From a virus: a DNA stretch of 32,728 bases. Both the position numbers and the translations under genes were made by a program. The notes beneath the pieces were generated by a model. That model searched no databases. It was not told the DNA's origin and was given only the letters and a program-made list of their open reading frames with translations. The stretch spans positions 1-32,728 of the IMG/VR virus record IMGVR_UViG_3300017991_000282; one strand, given 5' to 3'. This document shows, piece after piece, positions 5,655-32,728 of this stretch. Every line of letters starts with the position of its first letter. Position 1 is the first letter of the stretch.

Positions 5655-6215
5655 TTAAAAATTCCTTCCATATACTTTAATTGTACCTGTAATAGTAGAG
5701 CTACTAGGTAATATTGTAATAGATGTTATTTGTGTATCATTTCCTCCTGCCCATAAACCAGTTAAATATGTTGGATGGCTATTTCCAGCAGAAGGACAGT
5801 TCGATATTAAAGATAAAACACCACTAGCCACTGCTGGTGTTTTGCCGCCAATTAAAACAGTTCCATTAATATAAACAGTAGATTTTACAGATGCTATCCT
5901 GCTTGCAGAAGCACCTGTAGTTAAAGTTGCATTCGATTCCTGATAACTGTAATTATTACCCGTATCACCATTAAATCTTATTTGTATATTTCTTTCTGTA
6001 GCTTCTCCGCCAAGTAAATTATGTATAACTAATAAATATTGGTCATAAACATCTAAAGTCCCTGTCGTTGTTATTGTGGAAACTCCACTCGGACTTAATG
6101 TTTCGATAGGGACCCAATCTATTACTGCATCGAATGTATCATTTAAATCTATAGCCTTTGCCGCAGCGCCGTGTGGCCAATCTGTTCCGCCCAATAATGT
6201 ATTTCTAATTGCCAT
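5655..6215 (-). CDS. Tail-tip or receptor-binding structural protein
   Basis: A 186-residue protein, low in Cys, rich in Thr/Ser/Gly and hydrophobic beta-strand patterns, ending in ITGTIKVYGRNF, a style common to beta-sandwich virion proteins. The N-terminus (TLLGGTDWPHG) looks like a docking segment. It is the last gene of the tail block, where phages often place fibre or receptor-binding genes. The ATG follows the previous stop by 2 nt, with an AGGGG SD that also encodes the preceding protein's C-terminal Gln-Gly. No specific family recognised. Confidence 0.65.
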   Translation of the reverse strand: MAIRNTLLGGTDWPHGAAAKAIDLNDTFDAVIDWVPIETLSPSGVSTITTTGTLDVYDQYLLVIHNLLGGEATERNIQIRFNGDTGNNYSYQESNATLTTGASASRIASVKSTVYINGTVLIGGKTPAVASGVLSLISNCPSAGNSHPTYLTGLWAGGNDTQITSITILPSSSTITGTIKVYGRNF

Positions 6216-6217
6216 TT

Positions 6218-7132
6218 TTACCCCTGTGAAACTGTATTTTCAAACACAAATGCAAATTCATCTGTGTCTGCTTTACTTTGTCCATCGAAATCGCTAATGT
6301 CTGTTAATAATGGTGTTGCATCGGTATTCTCTAAGCCAGCTGCATTAATCAAAAAACCATTAGCTTTTGTTGCGTCTAAATATCCTCGAATTGTAACGGT
6401 ATTTGTGCTTTCATTTAATACTGGATAACCAGAGACGAATGCTTGTATTAAATCTGAAGTTGCCCATTGTCTTAGTAAATCATAGATTACGTCTCCCGCT
6501 ACAAATTCGTCTGTTGCATTATTAGTTGTTATTTCTATGATAAAAGTATCTATGTCACCTGATACAGTTCCGGTTTCGTCTAAATCTTCTACATTAGTTG
6601 TATTAGAAGTTATCCAATTCCAACCGACAGCTAAATCAGAAGCTTCGAAGGTTTTAGAATAATAATTAGATGAGTCTGATCCGAGCTTAACTTCTAAGCA
6701 AGTTCCAGAGGTCTTAAACTTCACTAATGCGGCCGAGTCTTTTATATATAACCACAAAGCAAAAGGTTCGCCTGCTGTAATAATTGTTCCAGCGGTGGCT
6801 AAATTAGATACTGTCCATATTTTTGTTGCATTAGTATCGTTAGCAATTAAATTTTGTGCTGTAACATCAGAGTTTCCTCCGCCTTGTTTAAATGTTGTTG
6901 TATTATCTGTTGAATTGTTTGCTCCTGATGAACCTGTTAAAGTATTACTACCATCGTCATTTGTGGTTCCGTCTGTAATTGGTACCGAGTAATCTAATTC
7001 TGTATCTGCTGCAACAGGTGTACCATTATTAATTCCAACTCGAAAATTACTTGGGACAGTATAATCTGGAGTAGCTTTATAAGAACGATTTAGTATAACC
7101 TTCTTTCCGTTATTTGTTAATATATCTGTCAT
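6218..7132 (-). CDS. Tail-tip protein with jelly-roll (carbohydrate-binding-like) domain
   Basis: 304 residues. After a Thr/Asn/Asp-rich N-terminus, about residues 115-215 form a beta-sandwich-like domain (FALWLYIKD, LGSDSSNYYSKTF, VGWNWITSN) that resembles a segment at the end of the neighbouring hub protein. The last 60 residues (AAGLENTDATPL, KADTDEFAFVFEN) are a typical phage structural-protein ending. It starts one base into the hub stop codon (TAATG). Its place beside the hub suggests a baseplate or adhesin part that may bind host surface glycans. The domain type is inferred from pattern only. Confidence 0.65.
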   Translation of the reverse strand: MTDILTNNGKKVILNRSYKATPDYTVPSNFRVGINNGTPVAADTELDYSVPITDGTTNDDGSNTLTGSSGANNSTDNTTTFKQGGGNSDVTAQNLIANDTNATKIWTVSNLATAGTIITAGEPFALWLYIKDSAALVKFKTSGTCLEVKLGSDSSNYYSKTFEASDLAVGWNWITSNTTNVEDLDETGTVSGDIDTFIIEITTNNATDEFVAGDVIYDLLRQWATSDLIQAFVSGYPVLNESTNTVTIRGYLDATKANGFLINAAGLENTDATPLLTDISDFDGQSKADTDEFAFVFENTVSQG

Positions 7133-9156
7133 TATTCGACCTCCATTAGCCTTTCTCCTAGGCCGTTTAATCCAATATAATTGCTTTTACTTACAGTGAA
7201 ATAATCCATATAAAAAGTAGTGTCTCCGGCTAATGCAAATTCGAGTCGTGTATAATCACAGTTTTCCCAATCTGGGGCTCCTGTTTCAGTGCCACCATCT
7301 AAATCAAATAATAAGTAATTCCAACCGGTTTGCATAGTAAAAGTTAAATCACTCCAATTACTGTAGCCAATTACAGAAGCATAAGCTTTAGCTCCTACTT
7401 CAGTATAATTGGAGTCAGAGCTTCCTATCCTCAAAGTTATATTTGTGATGTCAGTAGCTGTACTTACATAAACCCAAAGACCGATTGTTCCTTTTGTAGG
7501 TGAACCAGAAGTAGCGCCTGTAAATTCGCTTATATCTCCGTAATTATTAGTTGAAGCCAAATATCCAGTATCTGCTCCACCGGCCCATACTAACTTAACG
7601 CTTCCGGTCTCTTGTATCTCTTGTTCGGAAGTATCGGTAACAGTAAAGTTTGTGCCAGACCAATTTGCAGCACTTCCTGTAGTCATATTGTCTAGTATTT
7701 CACCTTGGTCGAGCAATCCATTTTCATAATGGTCTAATTTAAATGTATCACATAATTTATAACGTATTACTTGCAGCGGTGACTTTGTAATAACTATATT
7801 CTTTGAGATATCTAAAAGTGTTATTATAATATCTTGATTTTTATTAAGGCCAGCTAATAGCCTTTCGGTTTTCTCCATCTGAGTAACTTGCCAGTCTTCA
7901 GTTCTCCAAATCTTATCGCCAACTGTAATTTTGTCTGTGATATGAGGCCAAGAATATTCTACACGATTTACAAAAACAGTTTCGGTTTTTTGGTTAAAAG
8001 TTTGGTCATTTATTGTAACTAATGCGCCCGGTAATATATTTCCATAAGTTTGAATTGTAGTATCTGAAATAGGCACTTTTTCTGCAGTAACAAAAGGAGA
8101 GCTATATTTATTTAAAATGGCCCGTCCCTTGTCTTCAGCGTCTTTTATATCTTTTAAATTATCAAATGTGAATCTTTTAAAATGAGGAATTTTATTAGGC
8201 CCTCCGTAAGTATCGATAGAATTTTGGTCTCTTAAAACTACAGGCATAGGAACTTGAGCTCCGTATCTAATCCAAATATCAGAATAGTTAGTCGAAAGTA
8301 CTACTTTTTTAGTATCTACATCAACATAATAATCATAGTCTGTTCCGAAGATTCCTACGTCTTTGACGCCTCTTCTGAGTAAAGTATCAGCGCCTGCATG
8401 GTCATGTCTAACTTCAGTATCCTCAGGAGTTTTATCTAATGTTACTTCGTCTGTTGGTCCAGCTTCTGTTTTTACCAATTTATCATAGACTGTGGCTCCT
8501 AAAATCTTTACTTTGTTGATTAAATCTTCCATATTGTCTTTCCAATCGATTTGACCAGGTATAGCAGTTCCAACAACTAAAGTATGTGGATATTCTGTAA
8601 ATCCTTGCGGTTTAAAATTAACTAGACCGTCTTCATAATCATAAGTAATAGTGTATTTATAAAGTTCAGCGAGTTCATTCATTTTCTGAAAGTCGTCTTC
8701 GTCATTTTGCACGAACTTTACAATTTTAACTGATTCATCTGTTCCTGTACTAGTTATAGAACTTGAATCATAACTTAACAATGAATTGTCACAGATAGAT
8801 TTAAATATTTCGCTACCTACACCTGCCTCAGTATCAATATCTTTATCCCAGGTTTTTGTTTGTCCATTTTTAATTGCATCGTAAAGCTTACCCTTTAATA
8901 CAAAAACATTAGTGGCTGCACCAGGTTTTTTCTGTGTAATTTGGCCTTCAAAAAGAAATTCATCAGTTGCAGTTGTAAATCCTCTTTTAATGGTTACAGT
9001 GTCTCCAATAGCAGGTGTTAAGACATCACTAATAGAACTAGAAACAGTTAGTGCTCCGCCGTCTATTGCGACTTTCCAATCCTTAGTTACCTTCCACCGA
9101 GTTCTATATTGGGTGATATCAGTTCCATTTATCTTAACTTCGTCTTGCATAACCAT
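7132..9156 (-). CDS. Tail hub protein (gpD/gp27-like) with C-terminal sugar-binding-like domain
   Basis: 674 residues. The first 450 resemble the hub proteins that close the tail tube: an early beta-domain (IGDTVTIKRG, FLFEGQITQK), a long mixed region, then a segment with PGALVTINDQ and KITVGDKIWRTEDW typical of late-control-D type proteins. A short helix with TERLLAGLNKNQ follows. Residues about 500-660 form a separate beta-sandwich (IGLWVYVST, GSSDSNYTEV, GWNYLLFDLDGG) like the domain in the next protein, probably for host attachment. TAATG overlaps join it to both neighbours, and an AGGTG SD precedes the ATG. Hub assignment is supported by sequence style, length and position after the tape measure. 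Confidence 0.75.
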   Translation of the reverse strand: MVMQDEVKINGTDITQYRTRWKVTKDWKVAIDGGALTVSSSISDVLTPAIGDTVTIKRGFTTATDEFLFEGQITQKKPGAATNVFVLKGKLYDAIKNGQTKTWDKDIDTEAGVGSEIFKSICDNSLLSYDSSSITSTGTDESVKIVKFVQNDEDDFQKMNELAELYKYTITYDYEDGLVNFKPQGFTEYPHTLVVGTAIPGQIDWKDNMEDLINKVKILGATVYDKLVKTEAGPTDEVTLDKTPEDTEVRHDHAGADTLLRRGVKDVGIFGTDYDYYVDVDTKKVVLSTNYSDIWIRYGAQVPMPVVLRDQNSIDTYGGPNKIPHFKRFTFDNLKDIKDAEDKGRAILNKYSSPFVTAEKVPISDTTIQTYGNILPGALVTINDQTFNQKTETVFVNRVEYSWPHITDKITVGDKIWRTEDWQVTQMEKTERLLAGLNKNQDIIITLLDISKNIVITKSPLQVIRYKLCDTFKLDHYENGLLDQGEILDNMTTGSAANWSGTNFTVTDTSEQEIQETGSVKLVWAGGADTGYLASTNNYGDISEFTGATSGSPTKGTIGLWVYVSTATDITNITLRIGSSDSNYTEVGAKAYASVIGYSNWSDLTFTMQTGWNYLLFDLDGGTETGAPDWENCDYTRLEFALAGDTTFYMDYFTVSKSNYIGLNGLGERLMEVE

Positions 9157-9771: not shown

Positions 9772-11133
9772 TTACATATATGAGCTCCGTCTTCTTATTT
9801 CTGTTTCTTGGTATTCTGCTAATCTATTGGCTAAAGTCTGTATATCCATATCATTATTAATAGTAGCAGAGACATTAATGTAATTAGTAACGTTAATGCT
9901 TTCTTCGTTGCTTATTCCACCAATAGAACTATTAGAGACTTGTCCTGCTGTAATAACTCTTTCTCCTGCATGCAATTCGTAAAGCCCAGTTTTATCAATA
10001 TTACCGCCAGTAGCAAAACCTAGTTTGTCTCCTATCCAACTTCCTGCTGCTTTAAATCCTCCAGCGACTTTACCAACCGGATTCCAAGCTTTAACTTTTT
10101 CTATAAGGTCATCGAAAGGCTTTTTAATTAACTCCCATAAATCAGCTCCCCAATTAAGGACGACATTAAACCCTTTTACAAAGAAATCGTCCCAGATTTT
10201 AGAGCCCCAATTTAAGATACTTTCGCCAAATTTAACAAGATTAGGCCACAAATTATCCATAAAATTAAAGAATTTGTCTGCTCCTTTTTGTAGTCCGTCC
10301 CAAAGACCTTTAAAAAATTTTCTTGTGCCTTCTGCAAAAGACATAATTTTTTTGTCAGCCCACTTTAAACCATCTCCTAGCAATTCAAAACCTTTGATAG
10401 TTAATCCAACAGCCCAGACGATACCCTCTCCTAAGATTTTGTCAACAGTTTTTAATATATCGAAAAATAACTTAAATTCTCGACCGATCTCTTTAGCAAT
10501 GCCTTCAAATACATCCCAAACCCATTTTCCTACAACTTTTAGTCCTTCGAAAACTATACCTAAAGCACTAGCATTCTCTACTAATTTATCAAAGTTACCT
10601 ATACCCTTTCCATCGCCAATAGCTCCTTGGTCAGCCATTTTAGTTTTGTGTTCTTCGATATTTTTTTCTGCTCTGGCAATTTTTTCAGGGTCTCCCTCTA
10701 ATTTTGCAGATTGCAGTTCGGTGTCTAATTGTTTTAATTTATCTTCTGAAACTTCTTTATCTGTAGTTTTTGGTCCGAATTTCTTATACCAAGCCTGAGC
10801 AAATTTCATTAGCCAAACCATACCAGGTCTTACGAATTTTGCTAAAATATCGCCTATTGGTCTTAGTAAAAGCATAATGCCTTTTCCAAAGATAATCATT
10901 TGTTGTTTTAAAGCAGGAGAGGCTGCGCTGAGTGTTTTTAAAAGTTTGTTGCCTTCCCAGATTCCCAAAGACGCTTCGGCCAGATATTTTAAAGCCCTAC
11001 CTTTTATTCCGACTTTCATCTTTCCAGTACGTAAAGCAGAACCTGCCATAGACTGTGTAGCTTTTTTTCCGGCTATACTAGAACCCATTGACATTAATCC
11101 ACGTCCTGCTGCAGCAACAATAGGCGCTACCAT
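9772..11133 (-). CDS. Tape measure protein
   Basis: 453 residues from ATG 11133, which has GGAGG 6 nt upstream; the ATG at 11136 would leave only 3 nt. It sets tail length and fills the tube. The Ala/Gly-rich N-terminus, repeated amphipathic helices with periodic Trp/Phe (about 50-350) and the classic end GFATGGNIDKTGLYELHAGE (about 378-397, the GG..GLYELHAGERVI motif) identify the family. A charged coiled coil lies near 125-170. At about 0.15 nm per residue the tail should be around 65-70 nm, short for a siphovirus. The start overlaps the stop of the frameshift extension. No muralytic domain is present. Confidence 0.9.
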   Translation of the reverse strand: MVAPIVAAAGRGLMSMGSSIAGKKATQSMAGSALRTGKMKVGIKGRALKYLAEASLGIWEGNKLLKTLSAASPALKQQMIIFGKGIMLLLRPIGDILAKFVRPGMVWLMKFAQAWYKKFGPKTTDKEVSEDKLKQLDTELQSAKLEGDPEKIARAEKNIEEHKTKMADQGAIGDGKGIGNFDKLVENASALGIVFEGLKVVGKWVWDVFEGIAKEIGREFKLFFDILKTVDKILGEGIVWAVGLTIKGFELLGDGLKWADKKIMSFAEGTRKFFKGLWDGLQKGADKFFNFMDNLWPNLVKFGESILNWGSKIWDDFFVKGFNVVLNWGADLWELIKKPFDDLIEKVKAWNPVGKVAGGFKAAGSWIGDKLGFATGGNIDKTGLYELHAGERVITAGQVSNSSIGGISNEESINVTNYINVSATINNDMDIQTLANRLAEYQETEIRRRSSYM

Positions 11134-11336
11134 CATATGCCTCCGAAAGCTGTATCTTTTCCTTTAGCTTTTAATTTTATTTTCATTTTGACTAAAAAAT
11201 TGTATTCCTCAATTTCCATTTTAGCAATATCTCCTTTGCTATAACCTTTACTGACGAGCAAATCGTCTAAAATCCAAAATCTCTCTTTACCTGATTTCGG
11301 TATATTTCCGGTGTCAACAAATTCATCGACTATTAA
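11133..11336 (-). CDS. Tail chaperone T-part, made by -1 frameshift from the G gene
   Basis: A 67-codon frame with no plausible start of its own begins where the upstream chaperone gene ends. It reads from LIVDEFVDTGNIPKSG through GYSKGDIAKMEIEEYNFLV to AFGGI and stops at TGA 11135-11133, overlapping the tape-measure start. It is entered by a -1 slip at A_AAA_AAT (11342-11336), giving a fusion of about 194 residues. This matches lambda G and GT in position (tail tube, G, GT, tape measure) and relative size. In lambda GT links tape measure and tube subunits during assembly. The frame has no other explanation; slip efficiency is unknown. Confidence 0.8.
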   Translation of the reverse strand, partial: LIVDEFVDTGNIPKSGKERFWILDDLLVSKGYSKGDIAKMEIEEYNFLVKMKIKLKAKGKDTAFGGI

Positions 11337-11800: not shown

Positions 11801-12805
11801 TTATGTTACTGTATACCACTTAATTGGTTTGTTACCAGAATCGTCTGTAGCCTGTTTTGCAGTCCCGTTTATAGTTAATTCTACTAGATTTTCGCCTATA
11901 TTTACGGGTTTTGAGATGTCATTTATAGCGCAATCTGATAACTTAATTTGTAATATCTTGTCTCCAGACACAGCTCCTTCTGCAAAATCGAAAATCAAAT
12001 TGTAAAAATCAGGTTCTGCGTCTTTTATACCGTCAGCAGGACTATCTGCTTGGCCATAGAAATGGTCTCTCAATGTAGTAGCAACTGTATCGGTCATTTT
12101 AACAACACAGACCCAATCATATTTTCTAAGACCAGGTGCTGCTTCTGGTATGAACCTTGAGCCTAATTCTCTTGCTACATCAGCATCGAAGTTGTTATTT
12201 ATATTTACAGAGAAGCTTCTTACTCTACCGACATCGGATGAATTCCAATTAAAAGCTCCTTGTGAAAATATCCAAAGCTTTGTTGTATCAGCAGTATATG
12301 CTCCTGCACTTGTTGATGATGTAACAGTTTTAGCAAATCCTGATAAAGAGCAGGTTAATGCGCCTCCTACTTCACAAGACAAACCGATAGTATTCATTAT
12401 ACAACCAGTAAGTAAATCATTATCATCGGTTGCACTTACGTCTTCACTACCTACAGCCAGTGCAAATGACTTCATACCGGTTGAGTAATCCATGTATTCC
12501 TTTTCTTCGATTGTATAAGGTGAAGCAGTAGAACCAGCTCCTGCCTTAACTCCAATTCCATATTCCAGAAAATCAGGGTCGCCTAAATAATATTCCATAG
12601 ACCAATCTACACTAAAGTTCCCGAGGCCGACGAATTGCTCATTTCTTCCGTCTCCTGCACCTGCTACTCTAATAAGATTGTTATTCCTATTAATAGTTAC
12701 AGATTGTATACGTCCCTTTACAGATGTATTAGCTGTACCTCCAGTGCCATAAGCAGTTTCAGCGCCGTGTTGAACGTTGGTCTGATAACCTCTGTACGTA
12801 ACCAT
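11801..12805 (-). CDS. Major tail tube protein
   Basis: 334 residues of beta-rich sequence typical of tail tube subunits that polymerise around the tape measure: an N-terminal arm (MVTYRGYQTNVQHGAETAYG), SVTINRNNNLIRVAGAGDGR, a central VRSFSVNINNNFD strand pair, and a C-terminal ENLVELTINGTAKQ. The paired N..NNN phrases look like an internal duplication of the tube fold. It sits between the tail terminator and the chaperones and is followed by its own T-tract, as expected for an abundant protein. The ATG has a GGAGGA SD. No sheath gene accompanies it, so the tail is non-contractile. Confidence 0.8.
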   Translation of the reverse strand: MVTYRGYQTNVQHGAETAYGTGGTANTSVKGRIQSVTINRNNNLIRVAGAGDGRNEQFVGLGNFSVDWSMEYYLGDPDFLEYGIGVKAGAGSTASPYTIEEKEYMDYSTGMKSFALAVGSEDVSATDDNDLLTGCIMNTIGLSCEVGGALTCSLSGFAKTVTSSTSAGAYTADTTKLWIFSQGAFNWNSSDVGRVRSFSVNINNNFDADVARELGSRFIPEAAPGLRKYDWVCVVKMTDTVATTLRDHFYGQADSPADGIKDAEPDFYNLIFDFAEGAVSGDKILQIKLSDCAINDISKPVNIGENLVELTINGTAKQATDDSGNKPIKWYTVT

Positions 12806-19080: not shown

Positions 19081-19692
19081 TTATTGTAGTTCTAAAATTT
19101 TACTAACACGATTTTCTTCTACACGTAGTTCTTTAATTTCTTTCGAGCTAAGTCCCATTTCTTCCAGTATTTTAATTTGTTCTTTTTTAGTCATATCCAT
19201 TAAGTCTGTTTTTGACCATTTGCCATCGTCCTTCGATGCTTCAAGTTCTTCAATTGTAGGTTCTTCAGTTTCTTCAGTTTCGTCTTGTAAATCTTCTTCG
19301 AATTCTTCTTCTGTTTCGTCTTGTAAATCTTCTTCGAATTCTTCTTCTGTTTCGCCTGTCAATTTTTCAAAAACGCCTTTATGATAGTTAGTTAATTCAT
19401 CTTTGTCAATCCAAAATGTTTCTCTAGTTTCAAGATTTTTCTTAAAAAAATTACCGAATTCTATACCGAAACAAAATGGCATTTCTTTTGCTTTAAATAA
19501 AATAGTAGCATGTTTTATTGTGATTATAGCTTCACCTTCTAAAATTTGAAGCCCGCCATTGAATAGATGATGTTTTATTGAGTAGGATTTAAGTGATTTT
19601 TCAAAAAGTTCTTTTTCTTCGCCTGCAGATATATAAAAGTCGCTGTCATCAGCTTCAAAATATCTTAGGTTGTCTCTTAGTTTTACTTTCAT
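19081..19692 (-). CDS. Head-associated protein with acidic repeat and C-terminal SAP/Rho-N-like helix
   Basis: 203 residues in three parts. The N-terminus (MKVKLRDNLRYFEADDSDFY to about 95) is a compact domain typical of small proteins downstream of capsid genes. A very acidic linker follows (about 110-150), holding an exact 12-residue duplication with core EEEFEEDLQ. The end (about 155-203, WSKTDLMDMTKKEQIKILEE) resembles SAP or Rho-N helical folds that bind nucleic acid. The acidic linker could mimic DNA or bind basic capsid regions. ATG has a GGAGG SD. Function unknown. Confidence 0.65.
   Translation of the reverse strand: MKVKLRDNLRYFEADDSDFYISAGEEKELFEKSLKSYSIKHHLFNGGLQILEGEAIITIKHATILFKAKEMPFCFGIEFGNFFKKNLETRETFWIDKDELTNYHKGVFEKLTGETEEEFEEDLQDETEEEFEEDLQDETEETEEPTIEELEASKDDGKWSKTDLMDMTKKEQIKILEEMGLSSKEIKELRVEENRVSKILELQ
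19278..19349 (-). repeat. Exact 36-bp tandem duplication inside CDS
   Basis: Two identical adjacent 36-bp units (19278-19313 and 19314-19349) encode twelve acidic residues twice, in frame. Perfect identity at the DNA level points to a recent duplication, so copy number may vary between isolates. Confidence 0.9.
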
Positions 19693-20544: not shown

Positions 20545-20577
20545 AAAAAAATAAAAAAAATAGAAGTTTTTAACTTC
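20545..20577 (-). terminator. Intrinsic-type terminator after the major capsid gene
   Basis: On the minus strand GAAGTT-aaa-AACTTC, a 6-bp stem that includes the capsid stop codon, is followed by TATTTTTTTTATTTTTT (20561-20545). Hairpin plus U-tract at the end of the most abundant structural gene suggests partial termination to lower downstream expression. Confidence 0.65.
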
Positions 20578-21457
20578 CGATTCCTGTAATTGCTACTAGT
20601 CCTTTTGGCCTAGCACAAGCGATTGAGTACCTTGTATAAGCAACAACATCGAGATGTTTAGACCTTGCAGCCTTCTCAATTTCTGTTGTAAGAGGTTCTC
20701 TTTCGTAGAATCTAATTGCAGCCAAATCAACGTTTACCATTAGACCATAGCTTGTTGCAGCTTGACTAGATACCAAGATGTCAACTCCGAATGGTGTTGG
20801 GTAAATGCCTTTTTGGATTAAATCTGCATTTCCGTAGTTGATGTATTTCAACAAGTTAGGATCGATTCTTAGGTATTTAAAAGTGTTCGGATGTAGAATC
20901 AAGAATTTTCTTCCGTCGCCTGCATCGTCTGCTTCTAAAGCTGCTAGTCCATTGCTGATGTCTTGAATAACATCTGCTCCTGCTGCACTCCAAAGAGCTG
21001 TAGCTGCTACTGAATGGTCAGTAACTGCTGTTAGTGTTTGGCCAGCATAAGTTCCGCCTGCTACATAAGTATAGATAGCGGTTAGCATATCAGAGTTAAT
21101 ATATCTTGCGATACCAAACCCGATTGCTTCTACGTGGTCATTTACTAAGTCCCACCTGGAATCTTTAATCCAATTGACTGGGATTCTTGGTGCTACACCT
21201 AGGTCCTTGATAGTTGCAAACTTTCGAGTGAAGTCCAAAATCTGATTAGGATATTCTCCTGATTCTGATTCTTCTTCTGGTACTAGCCAAGTGTCTGTTG
21301 TGTTGTATTCTACAACTGGTCCATTTGCTGGATAAACTTTTCCTAGAAGAGGATAAAGAATTTTTGGTTGTAGAGCTTTGATTATTGTATCATCTACTTG
21401 CTCCTTGAATAATGCCCAAGTTGAGTTTGAAGATGCTGCTATTCCTGTATAAGCCAT
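20570..21457 (-). CDS. Major capsid protein, HK97 fold
   Basis: 295 residues, a usual size for a mature HK97-type subunit. Visible signs: N-terminal helix (TWALFKEQVDDTIIKAL), an E-loop region rich in Glu/Pro (WLVPEEESESGEYPNQ), a central helix (AIGFGIARYINSDMLTAIYT), the LILHPNTFKYLRIDPN strand-helix found in many capsid proteins, YPTPFGVDILVSSQAATSYG, and a closing IACARPKGLVAITGIG. It follows a decoration gene and a protease/scaffold gene, as in lambda-like head modules. There is no N-terminal delta domain, consistent with a separate scaffold. ATG has a GGAGGT SD. Confidence 0.85.
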   Translation of the reverse strand: MAYTGIAASSNSTWALFKEQVDDTIIKALQPKILYPLLGKVYPANGPVVEYNTTDTWLVPEEESESGEYPNQILDFTRKFATIKDLGVAPRIPVNWIKDSRWDLVNDHVEAIGFGIARYINSDMLTAIYTYVAGGTYAGQTLTAVTDHSVAATALWSAAGADVIQDISNGLAALEADDAGDGRKFLILHPNTFKYLRIDPNLLKYINYGNADLIQKGIYPTPFGVDILVSSQAATSYGLMVNVDLAAIRFYEREPLTTEIEKAARSKHLDVVAYTRYSIACARPKGLVAITGIGS

Positions 21458-24638: not shown

Positions 24639-26447
24639 TTAATTTAATTCTCGCCAAGTTAAACTACCCTCAACATCGACGTTAGTACTACCACCAACAG
24701 GAGTTACACAAAGTACAATCTCGTCAGGTGTACCATCAATCAAACTACCAAGCTTTAAAGCGTTAGTTACATTTGCTTGTGTTGAACCTACGTTTCCAGC
24801 TTGTCTACCACCTGATTCTGCGAAACCTGAATCTATTATATAACCACCTGTGACAGTATTATTTGTTGCACCTAATGCATATTGAACTGCTGATTGATTT
24901 TGGGCATTATAAGTAAATGTATCTGCAACTGCGGGATTAAATCTAAGTTCCCAAATTAATCTATCGTCGCCTGTTTGTAATTGTAATTCTATATTTAAAA
25001 CTTCAACGATTTCATTTAAATAATTAGGATGTAGTCTTATACCAATTAATGCATAAGTAGTATTTTCAGTATTAGCGTCTAAATGTGTTCCTGCTGTGTT
25101 TATACTTCTAACATTACCTAAAGGATTCTGGCCGCCCTCACTTATGATAGTACTACATATTTGGGTCATTGTAGATTCTGAACCAGTGCCATCATTTGAA
25201 ATCTCACTCCTAAGGGGTAGGTTTGGATTACTCATATAAACTTCTGTTAAATTGTTTGCATTTAAAAATTCATGACAATAATAAATAAGACCATCAACAA
25301 CAAAACCCATTCTAACCCTACCAACTCCTAACCATTCAAAATCAAAAGCCAATATATTAGTCTTAGTTAAATCAATCTCTATTCCAGATTTTCCAGTCCC
25401 ATCAAACTTATCTATATTCCAATTTGCTTGTGTTATAACATTATCAACAGCTGAACCAGTTACATAAGTTCTTCTAACAAATGAAAGTACTCCTCCATTG
25501 TCTTGTAAAAATAAACCGTTGTTTTCGTCAAACATACCTTCTCTTTGAGTTATGCCTGAACAACCACTACAAAAAGTAAAAGTCATAAATGTCAAGAGAC
25601 TTTTGCCCGGCTGGTAATTGAATCTTTGTTTTGTTTGTCTCACCCTTGTACCTGCAGTAGAATCAGAAACTGTTAAACTTTGGCTTGCAGTATCATTATC
25701 ATAAGCTGTGCTTGTACCTGTTCCACTAGTTTCTTGATTATCAAAAAATAAAATTTGATTTTCTTCATCTGCATTTTGGTTAGGGTCATCAAAAATGTTT
25801 TTAGAATCAAAAATAGTTTCAGGGTTACTAACCCTTAACCTACCAAAAGCGTCAATGTTAGATGTGTCAGCTAATCTTGCAGAAACTTCTTGGTGCCCAT
25901 ATTTATTTACTCTTTGTCTTATCCAATTATCGTTTTCTTCTTCATAACCATAATTTAAACTTACACTACTTGCAGTTGTGTTGTTTACATCGACGTCATC
26001 GTCATCCAAAACATATTTAGTTCGATAATCTATAATATACGCAAAACCGTCGTCTCCAGTCCATCTTTTCCAACTTTGACTTTTCCAATCATAATAGTGC
26101 ATTTCAGCTATTACGACTTGGGGTTGTTGTCCAGTTGCAACTGCATTGTCATCTATATCAGTAATAAATGGTGTCATTTTGGCACCAGCTGCACCAGCGC
26201 TATAATATCCGTAATTTCCAGAAGAGACACAAGCGGCATTATCTCTTTCGTCTTTAGAAGTTGTTAAATGGTCAGTATCTACTTTTAATCTGGTTGCACT
26301 TTCTGCGTCTTTAATTTCGACGGCCCCTATTTCTATATCAGCAGTAGAAAGTTCTGCGTCAACAGGCAATCTGTTTGTTGGTGTATAAGCTTCTCCTTCG
26401 TCATCGAATAGCCTTATTCTAATCCATCTTGGTAAACTCCAACCCAT
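24639..26447 (-). CDS. Large virion structural protein (AFGRLRVS family)
   Basis: 602 residues. The middle holds a signature known from many tailed-virus virion proteins: NIDAFGRLRVSNPETIFDSK near 207-226, then a VRQTKQRFNYQPGKSLLTFM stretch near 266-285. The rest is a large beta-sandwich (EGMFDENNGLFLQDNG, FVRRTYVTGSAVDNVI, IGIRLHPNYLNEIVEVLNIE). Such proteins are virion parts in phages with diverse hosts, often thought to be capsid or adhesion associated. It overlaps the preceding stop by one base (TGATG). Exact location in the particle is unknown. Confidence 0.7.
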   Translation of the reverse strand: MGWSLPRWIRIRLFDDEGEAYTPTNRLPVDAELSTADIEIGAVEIKDAESATRLKVDTDHLTTSKDERDNAACVSSGNYGYYSAGAAGAKMTPFITDIDDNAVATGQQPQVVIAEMHYYDWKSQSWKRWTGDDGFAYIIDYRTKYVLDDDDVDVNNTTASSVSLNYGYEEENDNWIRQRVNKYGHQEVSARLADTSNIDAFGRLRVSNPETIFDSKNIFDDPNQNADEENQILFFDNQETSGTGTSTAYDNDTASQSLTVSDSTAGTRVRQTKQRFNYQPGKSLLTFMTFTFCSGCSGITQREGMFDENNGLFLQDNGGVLSFVRRTYVTGSAVDNVITQANWNIDKFDGTGKSGIEIDLTKTNILAFDFEWLGVGRVRMGFVVDGLIYYCHEFLNANNLTEVYMSNPNLPLRSEISNDGTGSESTMTQICSTIISEGGQNPLGNVRSINTAGTHLDANTENTTYALIGIRLHPNYLNEIVEVLNIELQLQTGDDRLIWELRFNPAVADTFTYNAQNQSAVQYALGATNNTVTGGYIIDSGFAESGGRQAGNVGSTQANVTNALKLGSLIDGTPDEIVLCVTPVGGSTNVDVEGSLTWRELN

Positions 26448-26881
26448 CAGTTTTTCTCCAATCTATATATCAAAGTGTCTAATTGGTATATATAGATATT
26501 TATATCATCTTCTACTGTTCGCACGTCAGTTGGATTATATTCAAAATCTTTTAGTGCTTCTTTTACAACTAAATTAGAATACATCTTCATTTCATCGATT
26601 TTCAGTCCTTCTTCGTCAGACGGAAAGAATTGGTAGAAAGATTTTCCTTTCAAAACATTACGTATAAAGAATCTTATTTGTGCTTTTCTATCGTTTTCAA
26701 CGCCTAATTGCATTTCTTCTTCGATAGAATTAAAGAATTTCTTAGTAGCGAATATACAGTTTTCAATAGGCATTTCTATGTGTATATGATTTGGTCTTAT
26801 CGCATACATAATTGGATAGTTTCCAATCTTCATAATTTTTCTAAAGTCTTCGAACTTTACAGGGTATAAGTTTTCTTTCAT
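26447..26881 (-). CDS. Unknown protein coupled to portal gene
   Basis: 144 residues, mixed alpha/beta. An early YPIMYAIRPNHIHIEMPIEN strand region is followed by helices (FFNSIEEEMQLGVENDRKAQ) and a long C-terminal helix with INIYIYQLDTLIYRLEKN. The HIHIEM stretch contains two His but no clear catalytic set. It overlaps the portal stop by 4 nt (ATGA), so it is made with portal and may be a portal-associated or head-completion factor. No family recognised. Confidence 0.65.
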   Translation of the reverse strand: MKENLYPVKFEDFRKIMKIGNYPIMYAIRPNHIHIEMPIENCIFATKKFFNSIEEEMQLGVENDRKAQIRFFIRNVLKGKSFYQFFPSDEEGLKIDEMKMYSNLVVKEALKDFEYNPTDVRTVEDDINIYIYQLDTLIYRLEKN

Positions 26882-28998
26882 TTCTTAACGAATAATGTGC
26901 CTTCTTCAATTTTCTTAATATCTATTTCATCGCCTTCTTGGAAAGCAGGTTTATGTTTTTCTTGAATATCGCCGGCTTCGCCTTTTGTTTTGTGTTGAGC
27001 ATACCTTGAACCGCCTAATTGAGAAGGGTCTTTTACAGTTGAATCCTGTTGAGGTCTAAAGTTTCTATTGACATTTTGTGTACCTCTCATTTGTTCCATA
27101 GTTTGCTGTTCATTAAAATCAGAGGGTGTATTGCTTGCTTCTCTTTTGTCTTGACCACTGACATCATCTTCTAAAGGATTTGTTGTTAATTTAGTTTGTT
27201 TAGGGTCAAGTGGATCGTCTAGTCCTATTCGATTTTTGTCTTCCTCGACTTGTCTAGAACCAGATACTTCTCCGATTCTCATAGCAGCTCTATCTTTATC
27301 AATAACACCAGCATTAAGTAAAGCTATTGAATTTGCAATTGATTGTGTTTCGTCTTGCTTAAATGTTTCTTTCCAAGTTACTTCTGGTACTTTAGGTTCT
27401 GATGCCAGCCAACTATCAAAGCTTGTGAGTATGTCTTCTACGACGTCTTCTTCTCCAAGCATTCTTTTAACTTCCTGCTTACGTTTTACCTCTTGGTAAA
27501 TCTTCGGAGTTATTAATTTTTCCTCTATTTCATCTGCTAAGATACTTTGAGGTATTTTCGCTCTTGCCAAGAAAGTCTTATCTTGTTCAGAAATCATTCT
27601 GTCTGACGAGCCTTTAGGTTTAAAGTAAGTTTCTGGTACTCCCGTTGATGCAAATATCTGGGTATCTATGTCGTTAGTTAAATCTAAAATCTCTGCTTTA
27701 CCTTTACCTACTGCAATTATTTGTGACTCCCATGAGTTTGTAGTGACTGGGTCAGAACCGGGTTCCATATCTTGCAATAATTCTACCATTTCGTTTTTCT
27801 TAGTCTCTACTTGTTTTGGGCCTAAGCCTTCTGCATTTAATCTCCAATGAATCATTGGTTTAGTGTATTTTTTATACAAGATAGGGGACAAAATGTTTAT
27901 GTCTAATCTTGCAGTTGCAGGGTCTAAGCAAGTTTTTACTTCAGAGAAGCCAAACGGGTATTCAGTAAAATCATTGATTTTGAAATGCATAATGTCTTCT
28001 GGATGCATTACGATTGGAGTTGGATATGACAGCGTCACACCAGATAAAATATTCGGATTAAATCTACCGTCTGAGGGATATGAAGCGATAGTTGTACCGC
28101 CTATAATTGGAGGTAAATAAATATAGAATAATATTTTGGTTGTCATCGGGTCTAAGAAGATTTTCATTCTTTCCGGCTGCAATATAGTTATTTTATCGAC
28201 TAAACCATTAATGTCTCTTCGTAAAGCCCAGTAAGAATTTCCATAAGTCCCAAGGTGAAATCCTGTTTTTATAAGTTTATTATTATTGATTTTTAATTTT
28301 TTAAATAGATATTTTCTTATGATCTTTTCTTCGGGCACTTCATTAGATTCTGTACCATAATTAACATCGAATCCACAACCAAGGCCAAGTTGTGCTTTAA
28401 GTAAAACTGAGCCATATAAATAAGGAACGTTCCAAACTAAATCAACATTTCTTGTATAATCTTCAGGTGATTTAATAGAGGACAGGGAAAAGTAAAGCGC
28501 CCAGCCTGTAAATACTTTTCCGTTTACAATATAAACTCGGTCTCCGGCCATAGCTTGAGCATAAGGGATTCCTAAAACTCTATCGTCCTCTGCTGTTTCT
28601 ATTTTTCTTTTAACGACATAACTTTCTCCAGGATCGTCATACCGATTTCTTCTTTCAAAGACACGAGAGTTTCCGTTGTCTGCTACTTCAGCGATTAAAT
28701 TAGGATTTTTAGTGCTCCATTTTTTCAATTCAGTTAAATTTCCTTTGGACAAAGCTTTCTTCTCGTTCAAGTTCATGTTTTTATCTAAGTAACCGCTAGA
28801 AATAAGATTCTGTTTTATTTTCTCTTGGTCTTTCGCAAAACCATGGTCCAAAGACATTGATTTTTTTATATCGTCCATAGACTTCTCTAGTTTTTTTTGA
28901 AATCTATTTGAAGAAAATGGTTCAAAATCTGGGTCTAAGTCGCTGTTTCCTTTTTTATCGGCCAACTTTATTTTTGGTTCAGTATTAGAATTTTTCAT
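26878..28998 (-). CDS. Portal protein
   Basis: 706 residues. This dodecameric vertex protein threads DNA into the head. Evidence: follows TerL; a central portal core with VDLVWNVPYLYGSVLLKAQL, TGFHLGTYGNSYWALRRDIN and ILQPERMKIFLDPMTTKIL, a MHPEDIMHFK strand, then GVPETYFKPKGSSDRMISEQ, the clip/stem region common to portal families, and a helical barrel (ILADEIEEKLITPKIYQEV). The C-terminal 150 residues are disordered and Gln/Asn-rich. The N-terminal 110 residues are charged and may face outward. It starts 38 nt after a TATA box without SD. Confidence 0.85.
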   Translation of the reverse strand: MKNSNTEPKIKLADKKGNSDLDPDFEPFSSNRFQKKLEKSMDDIKKSMSLDHGFAKDQEKIKQNLISSGYLDKNMNLNEKKALSKGNLTELKKWSTKNPNLIAEVADNGNSRVFERRNRYDDPGESYVVKRKIETAEDDRVLGIPYAQAMAGDRVYIVNGKVFTGWALYFSLSSIKSPEDYTRNVDLVWNVPYLYGSVLLKAQLGLGCGFDVNYGTESNEVPEEKIIRKYLFKKLKINNNKLIKTGFHLGTYGNSYWALRRDINGLVDKITILQPERMKIFLDPMTTKILFYIYLPPIIGGTTIASYPSDGRFNPNILSGVTLSYPTPIVMHPEDIMHFKINDFTEYPFGFSEVKTCLDPATARLDINILSPILYKKYTKPMIHWRLNAEGLGPKQVETKKNEMVELLQDMEPGSDPVTTNSWESQIIAVGKGKAEILDLTNDIDTQIFASTGVPETYFKPKGSSDRMISEQDKTFLARAKIPQSILADEIEEKLITPKIYQEVKRKQEVKRMLGEEDVVEDILTSFDSWLASEPKVPEVTWKETFKQDETQSIANSIALLNAGVIDKDRAAMRIGEVSGSRQVEEDKNRIGLDDPLDPKQTKLTTNPLEDDVSGQDKREASNTPSDFNEQQTMEQMRGTQNVNRNFRPQQDSTVKDPSQLGGSRYAQHKTKGEAGDIQEKHKPAFQEGDEIDIKKIEEGTLFVKK

Positions 28999-29090: not shown

Positions 29091-30698
29091 TCATACATAA
29101 GCCGCATATCGTTGGCTCCTTCTCAAGTCAGCGGGCATATAGCTTCTATTGGTTTCCCTATAATCACGTCTTGATTTTTGATTTGCAAACAAGACTTCTT
29201 TTACTGAATTTTCTTTCGGTCCATGTACTTGTTCGTCTCTTCGTTCCCAAGGGTTTACGAATGTGCTTCTTACATTTGCCTCTCTAGAAATCATGATATT
29301 TTTCCAAGCAAGCAAAGTAGACCAAAGCGAATCGTCGTTTTCGTTTGAGGGATGATAAAACTTTTTCCTACCGAGCGGATCAGTTTCATACTGCTGATTC
29401 AAGAATTCAGATAATAGTTTCTCTGCAGATGCGGGAAGGGCAACTTGGAACTTCTCGAGCAGAGTTACAGCGGTATTTACCATTTCAGCTTTATTTTTCT
29501 GGGTGAAGGCTATTGCGCTTCTTTTCTTGGTTTTATCTATGAATGCAGGAACGTTATTTTCAATTAGGCTCTCCATAAAGCCTTTCTCATTCGTATAATC
29601 AAAGTTAAATTCGCACCACTGGTAAGCCTTATAAAACATTCCAATTACTTGTGCTATTTTCTTGTATTGAGTATCCAAAGGAAATTTAAGCATTACTTGT
29701 AATCTGATTGGTCTTTCATCGGTTCTCCATATGGTGAAGACAGTATTATCATTTTGCTTTCCTAAATCTAATCCTGCGACGAATTCTGCTCCATTATTTA
29801 CTAACTCAATAATTTTCTCAGCCATAGCTTTGGTGAAAAGTTGGTAGTCGGATAAATAATCGTATTTCTGTATAACTTCTCTTCCAGTCGGTCTTCCGTT
29901 TTTGCTTTCTGGTTCGAACAATCTTGAAGGAAATGCTAAAACTCCTTCTTCTACGAACTCACATAAATATTCTTGTCTCCATAAAGCATCTGGTGAAATT
30001 TCTTTTTGGCCCATTACATATTCCTTTGACAAGAAAGGGCATTCGAACCACATCTGTTTAACTACTGTAACATTTGGTGACAATATTGACTTATAAAAAT
30101 GGTTTTTAGTTTTTGGAGTTCCACTTTCTAAAATTATAGCATTTGTTGTTGCTCCAAAGGGAAGAACATCTCCAGAATACTTTGCGTCTGTTATATCTTG
30201 ACTTTCATCTATTACAATACATGTAGCTGTAAAACCTCTGATTTGGCTTCCTGGTGAAGCACTCATAAATTTACAGAAGTTTCCGTTCTTTGCAACGATT
30301 TTCTCTGAGTTCATCTTTATTATAAAATTAGATATAAACTCACTTTTGTTAATCAAAGTGGACATTTTGTCGTAGATTAGAACGTGCTGGTCTTTGATTG
30401 GAGCTACTATTGCAATCTGTTCTTTTATATATTCAGGCTTCGCTTTTTCGTTTACTTTTACTACGCCGCCTTTACCATATAGTAATCTCCATACTAGATA
30501 AGAAGCCGTTACTGTTGACTTTCCGGTTTGTCTACTCCATAAATTTAGAATGTGTTTTTTAGTTTTAGTAGCCTCTAAAAATGATTTTTGTTTTTCTGAC
30601 AGCGTTCTTCCTAAGAAAACTTCGATAAAGTAAATGGGATCGTTTTCAAACATTTTAATTAATTCGATTTCTTCTTTTACGCTAGCCGAATCAACCAT
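29091..30698 (-). CDS. terL: Large terminase subunit (TerL)
   Basis: 535 residues, full length for TerL. ATPase domain: Walker A-like SRQTGKST (55-62), Walker B CIVIDESQD (160-168, with D164-E165) and the coupling motif SGTP (192-195). RNase H-like nuclease: D311 in VAGLDLGKQND, D367 in FNFDYTNEKG and D455/D456 in NENDDSLW. The protein pumps DNA into the prohead and cuts it. Its start overlaps the small-subunit candidate by 8 nt with GAGG in the preceding codons. The C-terminal 60 residues (about 475-535) are basic with many Arg, probably contacting portal or DNA. Confidence 0.93.
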   Translation of the reverse strand: MVDSASVKEEIELIKMFENDPIYFIEVFLGRTLSEKQKSFLEATKTKKHILNLWSRQTGKSTVTASYLVWRLLYGKGGVVKVNEKAKPEYIKEQIAIVAPIKDQHVLIYDKMSTLINKSEFISNFIIKMNSEKIVAKNGNFCKFMSASPGSQIRGFTATCIVIDESQDITDAKYSGDVLPFGATTNAIILESGTPKTKNHFYKSILSPNVTVVKQMWFECPFLSKEYVMGQKEISPDALWRQEYLCEFVEEGVLAFPSRLFEPESKNGRPTGREVIQKYDYLSDYQLFTKAMAEKIIELVNNGAEFVAGLDLGKQNDNTVFTIWRTDERPIRLQVMLKFPLDTQYKKIAQVIGMFYKAYQWCEFNFDYTNEKGFMESLIENNVPAFIDKTKKRSAIAFTQKNKAEMVNTAVTLLEKFQVALPASAEKLLSEFLNQQYETDPLGRKKFYHPSNENDDSLWSTLLAWKNIMISREANVRSTFVNPWERRDEQVHGPKENSVKEVLFANQKSRRDYRETNRSYMPADLRRSQRYAAYV

Positions 30699-31395
30699 TA
30701 TTAAGTGCCTCTAAAATATTCGTTTTCTTTTTCTCGCGGATTTTTAATTCTTTAATTAGGTATGCAGTAAAGTCTTTGTCTGATTTAGTTGTTTCATCTG
30801 ATTTAAGCATTCTATCTAGAATTTCTGTTGTCTCGACTATGATTTTAGAGATATCAGATTTTTGTTTTAGCAAAGGGTTCTGATAATAAACGGGTCCAGC
30901 CGGTGTTTCCTTTTTAAGAATTAAACCTAGATTAGTGAATGCTTTATTTGCTCTACTTGAATTTAAGATATTCGAAACTAGCTCTTTAACAATCATATAA
31001 ACACGTGGGTCTAAAATGTCATAGCCTGCGTCTACAAACTTTTGTAATGAATTTAGAACTTCGTCTTTCTCGAATCTACATCTAGTGTCTTTTAATGTTT
31101 TGTATGCTTGACTTTTTAGATAGTTATTATAAACGTAATCTCTTTTTTCGTTTGCTCTTAAAACATTTTCTGCAGAATTGTCCAGCTCGATTTCTTCTTC
31201 GTATATATCTTCTGCTATTTGTTTTGCTTTTTCTTTAAGTGGCTCAATTTGTTCTTTAGAAAGTTTACATTCTAGAACGATAGGACAATTTACGCATCGC
31301 ATAATTTCATATTCAAACTTTTCACATAGTTGAACTACCGATTCGTTAATCTTAGTAAGAGTGTTATTTTCTTCTTTTTGTAAAGCATTGTCCAT
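30691..31395 (-). CDS. Candidate small terminase subunit with Cys cluster
   Basis: 234 residues, overlapping TerL, the usual place for the DNA-recognition subunit. N-terminal C24-x9-C34-x2-C37-x5-C43 (RCVNCPIVLEC) could bind zinc or an iron-sulfur cluster, which is not standard for TerS. The rest is helical with charged coiled coils (about 45-110, 180-234). The central DYVYNNYLKSQAYKTLKD and FVDAGYDILDPRVYMIVKEL segments resemble helical oligomerisation parts. The mRNA is probably leaderless (TATA centre 26 nt upstream). Upstream DNA holds tandem repeats that could be its binding site. Identity as TerS rests on position. Confidence 0.6.
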   Translation of the reverse strand: MDNALQKEENNTLTKINESVVQLCEKFEYEIMRCVNCPIVLECKLSKEQIEPLKEKAKQIAEDIYEEEIELDNSAENVLRANEKRDYVYNNYLKSQAYKTLKDTRCRFEKDEVLNSLQKFVDAGYDILDPRVYMIVKELVSNILNSSRANKAFTNLGLILKKETPAGPVYYQNPLLKQKSDISKIIVETTEILDRMLKSDETTKSDKDFTAYLIKELKIREKKKTNILEALNNG

Positions 31396-31506: not shown

Positions 31507-31574
31507 TACCAAATTTGAACTTTATGGTTTTGTAAGTATATTTATATTAATATAAAAACAGTTCAAATTTGGTA
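31507..31574. repeat. 15-bp perfect inverted repeat with palindromic core
   Basis: TACCAAATTTGAACT (31507-31521) and its exact reverse complement (31560-31574) flank a 38-bp AT-rich spacer. Each arm contains the 8-bp palindrome CAAATTTG, so the site could be two dyad operators or a cruciform. It lies between the terminase promoter and the tandem repeats; candidate operator, packaging or replication element. Confidence 0.8.
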
Positions 31575-31599: not shown

Positions 31600-31822
31600 G
31601 TGAAAGTGGATATATGATTTGCATAGCAAAAAAATTAAAAAGTGAAAGTGGATATATGATTTGCATAGCAAAAAAAATAAAAAGCGAAAGTGGATTATGG
31701 ATTTTCTTAGTGTAAAGTCGTGTAAGGATTTTCTTAGTGTAAAGTCGTGTAAGGATTTTCTTAGTGTAAAAATTAAAAAGCGAAAGTGGATTATGGATTT
31801 TCTTAGTGTAAAGTCGTGTAAG
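31600..31822. repeat. Compound tandem repeats upstream of terminase genes
   Basis: Two 42-bp units (31600-31641, 31642-31683) share the start RYGAAAGTGGAT and an A-rich end. A related 96-bp unit (31684-31779) and a fourth, truncated unit from 31780 carry instead a 27-bp subrepeat beginning GGATTTTCTTAGTG (31699-31725, 31726-31752, partial 31753-31770, and 31795-31821). No CRISPR spacers are present. All unit lengths are multiples of three, which keeps reading frames open by accident or design. Candidate packaging initiation site (pac/cos) or iterons. Confidence 0.8.
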
Positions 31823-31992
31823 GACGGTTGGCTTCATACTATACCCCCTATTCTATTATATATTTTCTAACATCTATTTTACAAACTATATTCTATAAAA
31901 CATACTTTAAAATATATATTCTATAAAATATACTTCATAAGATACACAATAAAAAATAAATAATAAAATCTATATTCTATAAACCATATATC

Positions 31993-32073
31993 CTATTTTC
32001 TATATTCAAACATATAAAAAATAAAATCATAATCTATAATATCAATCAAAAAATCAACATTATCAAAAACCAT
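31993..32073 (-). CDS. Possible 26-residue peptide, cytosine-free
   Basis: ATG 32073 is preceded at 6 nt by AGAGGTGA, a near-perfect SD, and opens 26 codons (MVFDNVDFLIDIIDYDFIFY...) ending in TAG. The peptide is hydrophobic and acidic. It lies after a T-tract, so it would need read-through or its own promoter. The SD at correct spacing is the main support; the short length leaves doubt. Confidence 0.35.
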   Translation of the reverse strand: MVFDNVDFLIDIIDYDFIFYMFEYRK

Positions 32074-32091
32074 TTTTCACCTCTTAATAAT

Positions 32092-32117
32092 AAAACAAAA
32101 ATAAAAAATAAAAAATT
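32092..32117 (-). terminator. T-tract terminator after the cytosine-free gene
   Basis: Minus strand TTTTTTATTTTTTATTTTTG directly follows the stop of the 139-codon gene. It matches the T-tract style of the structural-gene terminators and supports that gene as a real transcription unit. Confidence 0.5.
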
Positions 32118-32535
32118 AAATATTCATTTTATTAATACTTAAAAAATTACTACCTTTATTCTTATTCTTCAAATTTCTCACTTTTTCCACAATATCAATA
32201 TAATTTATATCAATATTTTTTAACTCTTTTTTCCTCACTTCCTCAACTTCTTTTCTTTTTTCTTCATTCCACTTAACAACTCCACTACTACCTTTTACCC
32301 CAAAATACCTTTCTATTCTTCTATACCCATTTACCCCCCTACTTTTTACATTTAATTTATATTTATTCAAATATAAATCTTCACATTCTTTTTTATCTTT
32401 TCCTTCACTTTCTACTAAAAACAACAAAAATTTTTCTTCTTCACTAATTTTATTCAAATCATATTCTTTTTTATTAATCTTACTACTTACTACTTCCAAT
32501 TTATCTATATTTTTTTCCATTTCTCTCAACTCCAT
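32116..32535 (-). CDS. 139-residue protein encoded without cytosine
   Basis: Every base of this gene on its coding strand is A, G or T, so Ala, Pro, Thr, His and Gln cannot occur, and none do. Only 15 residue types are used. All three stop codons lack C, so they should be more frequent than normal in such DNA; 139 open codons argue for selection on the protein. It is Lys/Glu/Asn-rich and helical, with ISEEEKFLLFLVESEG, KSRGVNGYRRIERYFGVKG (about 64-82, perhaps a helix-turn-helix DNA-binding segment) and a long charged helix. Start is ATG 32535 or ATG 32520, which has GGAG nearby and a TATAAAAA box about 31 nt upstream. Function unknown. Confidence 0.65.
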   Translation of the reverse strand: MELREMEKNIDKLEVVSSKINKKEYDLNKISEEEKFLLFLVESEGKDKKECEDLYLNKYKLNVKSRGVNGYRRIERYFGVKGSSGVVKWNEEKRKEVEEVRKKELKNIDINYIDIVEKVRNLKNKNKGSNFLSINKMNI

Positions 32536-32684
32536 TAATTACATAAATTTTTATACATAATTAATACTATTAATAAATACATACTACTATATAAATATTT
32601 ATATTCTACAAACTATATATTCTATTTTACCAAAACCTTTATATATAACCTATATTTTCCTAAAATTTTTAATATATCCTCACT

Positions 32685-32728
32685 AAACTATATATTCCAA
32701 ACTATATATTCCAAACTATATATTCCAA
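32685..32728. repeat. 14-bp tandem repeat at the right edge
   Basis: AAACTATATATTCC occurs three times head to tail (32685, 32699, 32713) and continues into the edge with AA. A similar AAACTATATATTCT lies near 32610. The window stops inside the array, as happens at an assembly break or a genome end made of repeats. Confidence 0.9.

Follow-up and report, generated by a model that had tools for sequence, protein, structure and literature searches.

A cytosine-free gene cassette upstream of the packaging genes in a tailed virus and its relatives

The DNA considered here, which we refer to as the window, is the whole of one IMG/VR record (IMGVR_UViG_3300017991_000282; 32,728 nt), an entire contig from a tailed virus whose main genes all lie on the minus strand (Table 1). 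The host is probably archaeal, as suggested by TATA boxes located some 25 nt ahead of terS genes that appear to be leaderless and by a match to the transglutaminase-like family DUF553, which we take to be an archaeal family. The structural protein encoded at 24639-26447 shares, over its C-terminal two thirds, about 37% identity with a virion protein of the marine cyanophages S-RIM8 and S-RIM50, whereas the other window proteins that were searched resemble those of known phages little or not at all. A further gene (19081-19692) contains an internal 36-bp tandem repeat at 19270-19354, which is translated into an acidic EETEEEFEEDLQD-type repeat. TerL and capsid searches of genome contigs returned no provirus, no MCM hit with E <= 1 occurred in the window, and Rfam and tRNA scans were both empty.

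Table 1. Main genes of the window and elements of the cytosine-free region.
Feature	Position	Strand	Remark
Tape measure gene	9772-11136	-	
Tail tube gene	11801-12805	-	
Capsid gene	20570-21457	-	
Portal-like gene	26878-28998	-	
Terminase large subunit (terL)	29091..30698	-	query that led to the relatives
Presumed small terminase (terS)	30691..31395	-	named by its position before terL; conserved neighbour of the cassette
Proximal part of tract	31832..31941	-	a single C, opposite the plus-strand G at 31941; abrupt border at 31831
Degenerate 14-bp repeats	31858..31996	-	on the terS side of the 139-aa ORF
C-free coding-strand tract (plus strand G-free)	31942..32728	-	787 nt, truncated where the contig stops
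C-free mini-ORF, 26 aa	31993..32073	-	downstream of the 139-aa ORF; AGAGGTG ahead of its ATG
C-free ORF, 139 aa (P0001)	32116..32535	-	no homologue found
TATA box TTTATATA ahead of the C-free gene	32588..32595	-	from sequence; within ATTTATATAGTAGTA, identical in L064 by alignment
14-bp tandem repeats, TATATAGTTTGGAA on coding strand	32685..32728	-	at the contig end; related to the TATAGTTTAGAG repeats of L064 and L002

Upstream of terS, a spacer of 436 nt with 42- and 27-bp tandem repeats (AAAGTGGATATATGATTTGCATAGC... and GGATTTTCTTAGTGTAAAGTCGTGTAA, at 31600-31824) separates that gene from the border of a region in which the coding strand is almost devoid of cytosine. A perfect 15-nt inverted repeat (TACCAAATTTGAACT; 31507-31521 and 31560-31574) also lies upstream of terS. 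Within the C-free region, the main ORF likely begins at Met6 (32520), 9 nt after a GGAG motif.

Over the tract proper, the plus strand comprises 299 A, 154 C and 334 T with no G, and the coding strand as a whole has a single C in the 897 nt from 31832 to 32728. Elsewhere in the window, the longest G-free run measures 58 nt. Given the coding-strand C frequency of 0.153 found elsewhere, a run of 787 nt has a chance of about 10^-57 per start, and none of 100 dinucleotide shuffles reached a G-free stretch of even 188 nt. The loss concerns cytosine alone: coding-strand composition is A 0.42, G 0.19 and T 0.38 within the tract against A 0.38, C 0.15, G 0.19 and T 0.28 elsewhere, leaving the share of G unchanged. 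An earlier note on this DNA had described the G-free plus strand with its one exception, the sharp border, the one-sided loss, and a 139-codon gene without Ala, Pro, Thr, His or Gln, and each of these observations holds on recounting. Its expectation that RNA from the tract would be nearly unstructured is roughly right: predicted minimum free energies lie between -0.07 and -0.17 kcal/mol/nt, compared with a mean of -0.18 for the background. The window tract is incomplete, as the contig terminates within the 14-bp tandem repeats.

The earlier note had also proposed that related contigs be scanned for stretches lacking one base, and two relatives, found via a structural protein and then via TerL, carry such a stretch in the same place. 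Both derive from other metagenomes: IMGVR_UViG_3300029267_000741 (L002) and IMGVR_UViG_3300031227_004482 (L064, also L112). TerL is about 60% identical between the window and either relative, TerS is 57% (L002) and 55% (L064) identical to that of the window, and the major capsid protein of L002 is 81% identical. The L064 tract is seen whole and away from the contig ends: 726 nt (7964-8689) of zero C lie upstream of terS between stretches of ordinary DNA. In L002, 81 C-free nt on the same side of terS run to the contig end. At the terS-side border, TATAG gives way to CCCTGCCC in L064 and to CCCAGCCC in L002. In every tract, it is the coding strand that lacks C. Stretches without C or without G reach at most 103 nt in 134 other viral loci (1.47 Mb), and pattern scans for the repeats and for a promoter followed by C-free sequence turned up long C-free tracts in no additional virus. 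The C-free cassette is real and conserved in place and strand, in a sample of three viruses of which one (L002) contributes just 81 nt.

The window and L064 also share the organization of the cassette. In each, the main ORF has an upstream TATA box inside the identical ATTTATATAGTAGTA and a GGAG-type ribosome site. Repeats (TATAGTTTAGAG and TATAGATGTTAGA) flank the L064 ORF on both sides and have recognisable relatives in the window. Moreover, L064 has a 21-aa mini-ORF at the position of the 26-aa one in the window, although the similarity between them is only suggestive (shuffle p = 0.04). The terS-side spacer of L064 contains hairpins in place of the 42- and 27-bp repeats of the window.

A second C-free tract in L064 (7488-7653; 166 nt, with a chance of about 10^-15 per start) lacks the repeats of the long one. 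It opens with a TATA-box module, followed by GGAGAGTGATAAAATG and by a 28-codon ORF (MRDRDRLCMLRDEVDFWVSEIVMVKDIE), and closes about 10 nt past a run of 11 T; this order fits a single promoter-to-T-run transcription unit, or mini-gene. Near-identical C-free promoter-leader modules of 74-75 nt (GTAGATA..TTTATA..GGAGAGTGATAAAATG) recur at 6122-6196, 6476-6550 and 7011-7084 of L064, and the bodies of the three small genes behind them are normal and contain C. Since these neighbours share the promoter module, the promoter is not the cause of C-freeness.

Both main ORFs look genuinely coding. The window ORF has 139 codons and that of L064 has 124 from a GTG, or 112 from the ATG at 8179, and both exceed the longest ORFs obtained in 5000 shuffles of their own tracts (84 and 78 codons, respectively). 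Codon-position base bias is evident in the ORFs (p ~6e-4) and missing from the flanking C-free DNA (p of 0.2 or more). The two proteins are rich in Lys, Glu and Asn and share the five missing amino acids, but no similarity between them is detectable (E = 0.049; hhalign probability 0.4; shuffle p = 0.18). Searches with the 139-aa protein gave no homologue in viral contigs, phages, Pfam, PHROGs or NCBIfam, and the sole match of the L064 protein was itself. Structure models of the two are all-helical and unreliable (mean pLDDT of 49.5 and 52.6). As the main ORFs look coding yet their products have no detectable similarity, C-freeness seems to be a property of the locus and not of a protein family, and since the neighbouring genes are 55-81% identical, the slot and its C-freeness would have been retained while the protein changed or was replaced. 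Alternatively, the two may belong to one deeply diverged family. A pure codon-usage effect is rejected, as leaders and intergenic repeats are C-free too. The tract also does not look like a target of a diversity-generating retroelement: A makes up 42-44% of it and is not depleted, its repeats are short iterons, and no reverse transcriptase occurred among the part of the proteins scanned.

To account for the missing base, the earlier note had offered either a completed strand-specific C-to-T process or selection against cytosine, and the evidence moves toward the second. Enzymes of the ComEB-like dCMP deaminase family normally act on nucleotides. L064 carries a gene for one in its early region (776-1258), probably for nucleotide metabolism though notable in a virus with C-free genes, and it is the only deaminase candidate found. 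Were every C changed to T on a non-template strand displaced in a transcription bubble or R-loop, or on a strand left unpaired in replication, with the gene adapting in turn, the loss would be one-sided and on the coding strand, as is observed, and the purine richness of that strand would favour R-loops. Val, moreover, is raised in both proteins; Ile and Phe, however, are not raised as C-to-T change predicts, and neighbouring genes behind the same promoter have kept their C. Strand-specific C loss is present in three viruses, but the T excess expected of a deaminase target is absent. At fourfold-degenerate Val and Gly sites, which lean to A and G, T occupies only 9 of 43 positions against 23.6 (about 55%) expected under C-to-T change (p = 5.5e-6), with other genes of the same viruses as a codon baseline that may not be ideal. 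With no T enrichment at these sites, completed deamination is disfavoured and appears unlikely, and avoidance of C rather than its conversion to T is favoured. Even when codons with C are simply left out of the normal codon usage, the model expects somewhat more T than is seen (16.0 against 9; p = 0.018), which counts against our own reading, and a C-to-A process may be compatible with the same sites.

Together with deamination, the main rival of a role in RNA is a function of the DNA itself, with the repeats and a weakly pairing C-free strand forming an origin, a packaging start or a recombination site that has to stay melted, lack structure, or contain no primase or nickase sites, and with the gene as a passenger. 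The cassette does adjoin packaging genes, repeats flank its ORF on both sides, hairpins or inverted repeats lie between tract and terS, and folding is weak. Yet for low structure a strand would have to be poor in C, not devoid of it, 700 nt without one base are a requirement of no known origin or pac site, and the separate 166-nt tract of L064 fits a gene unit without such repeats, leaving this explanation, too, improbable as a whole. We give distinctly less credence to restriction avoidance, under which a strand without C, and hence without GC-containing palindromes, would escape most type II enzymes and might encode an early anti-restriction protein. GC-containing 4- and 6-bp palindromes are indeed absent from the tract (0, whereas a 787-nt control has 14 and 5), but this follows automatically from C-freeness; avoidance would need no fixed strand, and isolated non-palindromic C, though harmless, are gone to the last one. 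A sequencing, library or assembly artefact such as chemical conversion, about which the earlier note had worried, was conceivable as long as the tract was seen to stop at contig ends, as in the window and L002. It is now largely refuted and very hard to credit: three separate contigs of related viruses, two of them from other metagenomes, share the tract at the same position, that of L064 is internal with normal flanks, the ORFs are intact, and there is no excess of T.

The reading that we prefer, albeit tentatively and with somewhat less than even confidence, is that of an expression cassette from whose coding strand selection keeps cytosine, most likely because the RNA must be C-less. C is wholly absent, always from the coding strand and in untranslated leaders as well, which points to the RNA or that DNA strand as the target of selection, and RNA is the simplest choice because the 166-nt tract of L064 fits one transcription unit; we infer, accordingly, that RNA is the selected object. 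The cassette would then occupy a constant position upstream of the packaging genes and consist of a short, fast-changing gene accompanied by a mini-gene and by repeats on its flanks, and its C-less RNA could be made, or could survive, when cytidine is a liability. Bacterial and archaeal viperins can produce ddhCTP, which terminates RNA chains (PMC10732462). In the case that we favour, the viperin of an infected archaeon would make this terminator, taken in place of CTP; a transcript with no need of CTP could not be terminated by it, and its product would still be made. Shortage of CTP, or an RNase that cuts at C, could act on the same feature. That whole viral transcription units are kept C-free so that messages continue to be made even if CTP is poisoned or removed by the host, for instance with the ddhCTP of viperin, nonetheless strikes us as doubtful, and ddhCTP as the agent is speculative. 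A transcript that is C-free from start to end fits the L064 mini-gene, whereas the transcript ends of the long tract are putative. The long tract of L064 overshoots them, starting some 150 nt ahead of the recognised TATA box and running on for about 80 nt beyond a T-rich putative terminator, so that one must assume either that the transcript is longer or that the repeats are there for a different reason (a DNA function such as origin or packaging). Because the genes near the cassette all have the same orientation, the directions of transcription and replication are inseparable here.

One base has gone completely from one strand of a whole gene and has stayed absent in related viruses while the protein changed beyond recognition, which implies a strong force on nucleic acid rather than on protein. 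Should evasion of a CTP-analogue defence prove to be that force, it would constitute a new kind of counter-defence, residing in the base composition of a gene and not in a protein, with a signature that is simple to scan for. Should a strand-specific mutational or replication process be responsible instead, the cassette would be an extreme and complete example of it. Under either reading, it offers a concrete, testable system.

The earlier note had known of no described viral system of this kind, and literature searches on cytosine-free genes likewise gave nothing relevant in the papers searched, a coverage outside which subscription journals fall; as far as we found, the cassette is undescribed. 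Nor did the papers searched describe escape from ddhCTP by removal of C from a gene. Compared with viral escape from viperin nucleotides, a C-free RNA would act at the step of CTP-analogue incorporation, and the link to viperin is one that we propose here. Deamination of the AID/APOBEC type, linked to transcription or R-loops, and the strand skews associated with it resemble the viral tract in strand-specific loss of C from the non-template strand, but such skews are partial and T-enriched, whereas here the loss is complete and fourfold sites show no enrichment of T. The hypervariable region of hepatitis E virus is U-free and thus similarly a viral coding stretch nearly without one base, though it belongs to an RNA virus, lies in a protein-flexible region and covers less than a whole transcription unit. 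In in-vitro transcription, C-less (or G-less) cassettes yield RNA without one nucleotide and are transcribed in the absence of that NTP. The viral tract is, like them, a template for RNA lacking one nucleotide, but those cassettes are artificial and short, and the viral one is natural, with a promoter and genes of its own.
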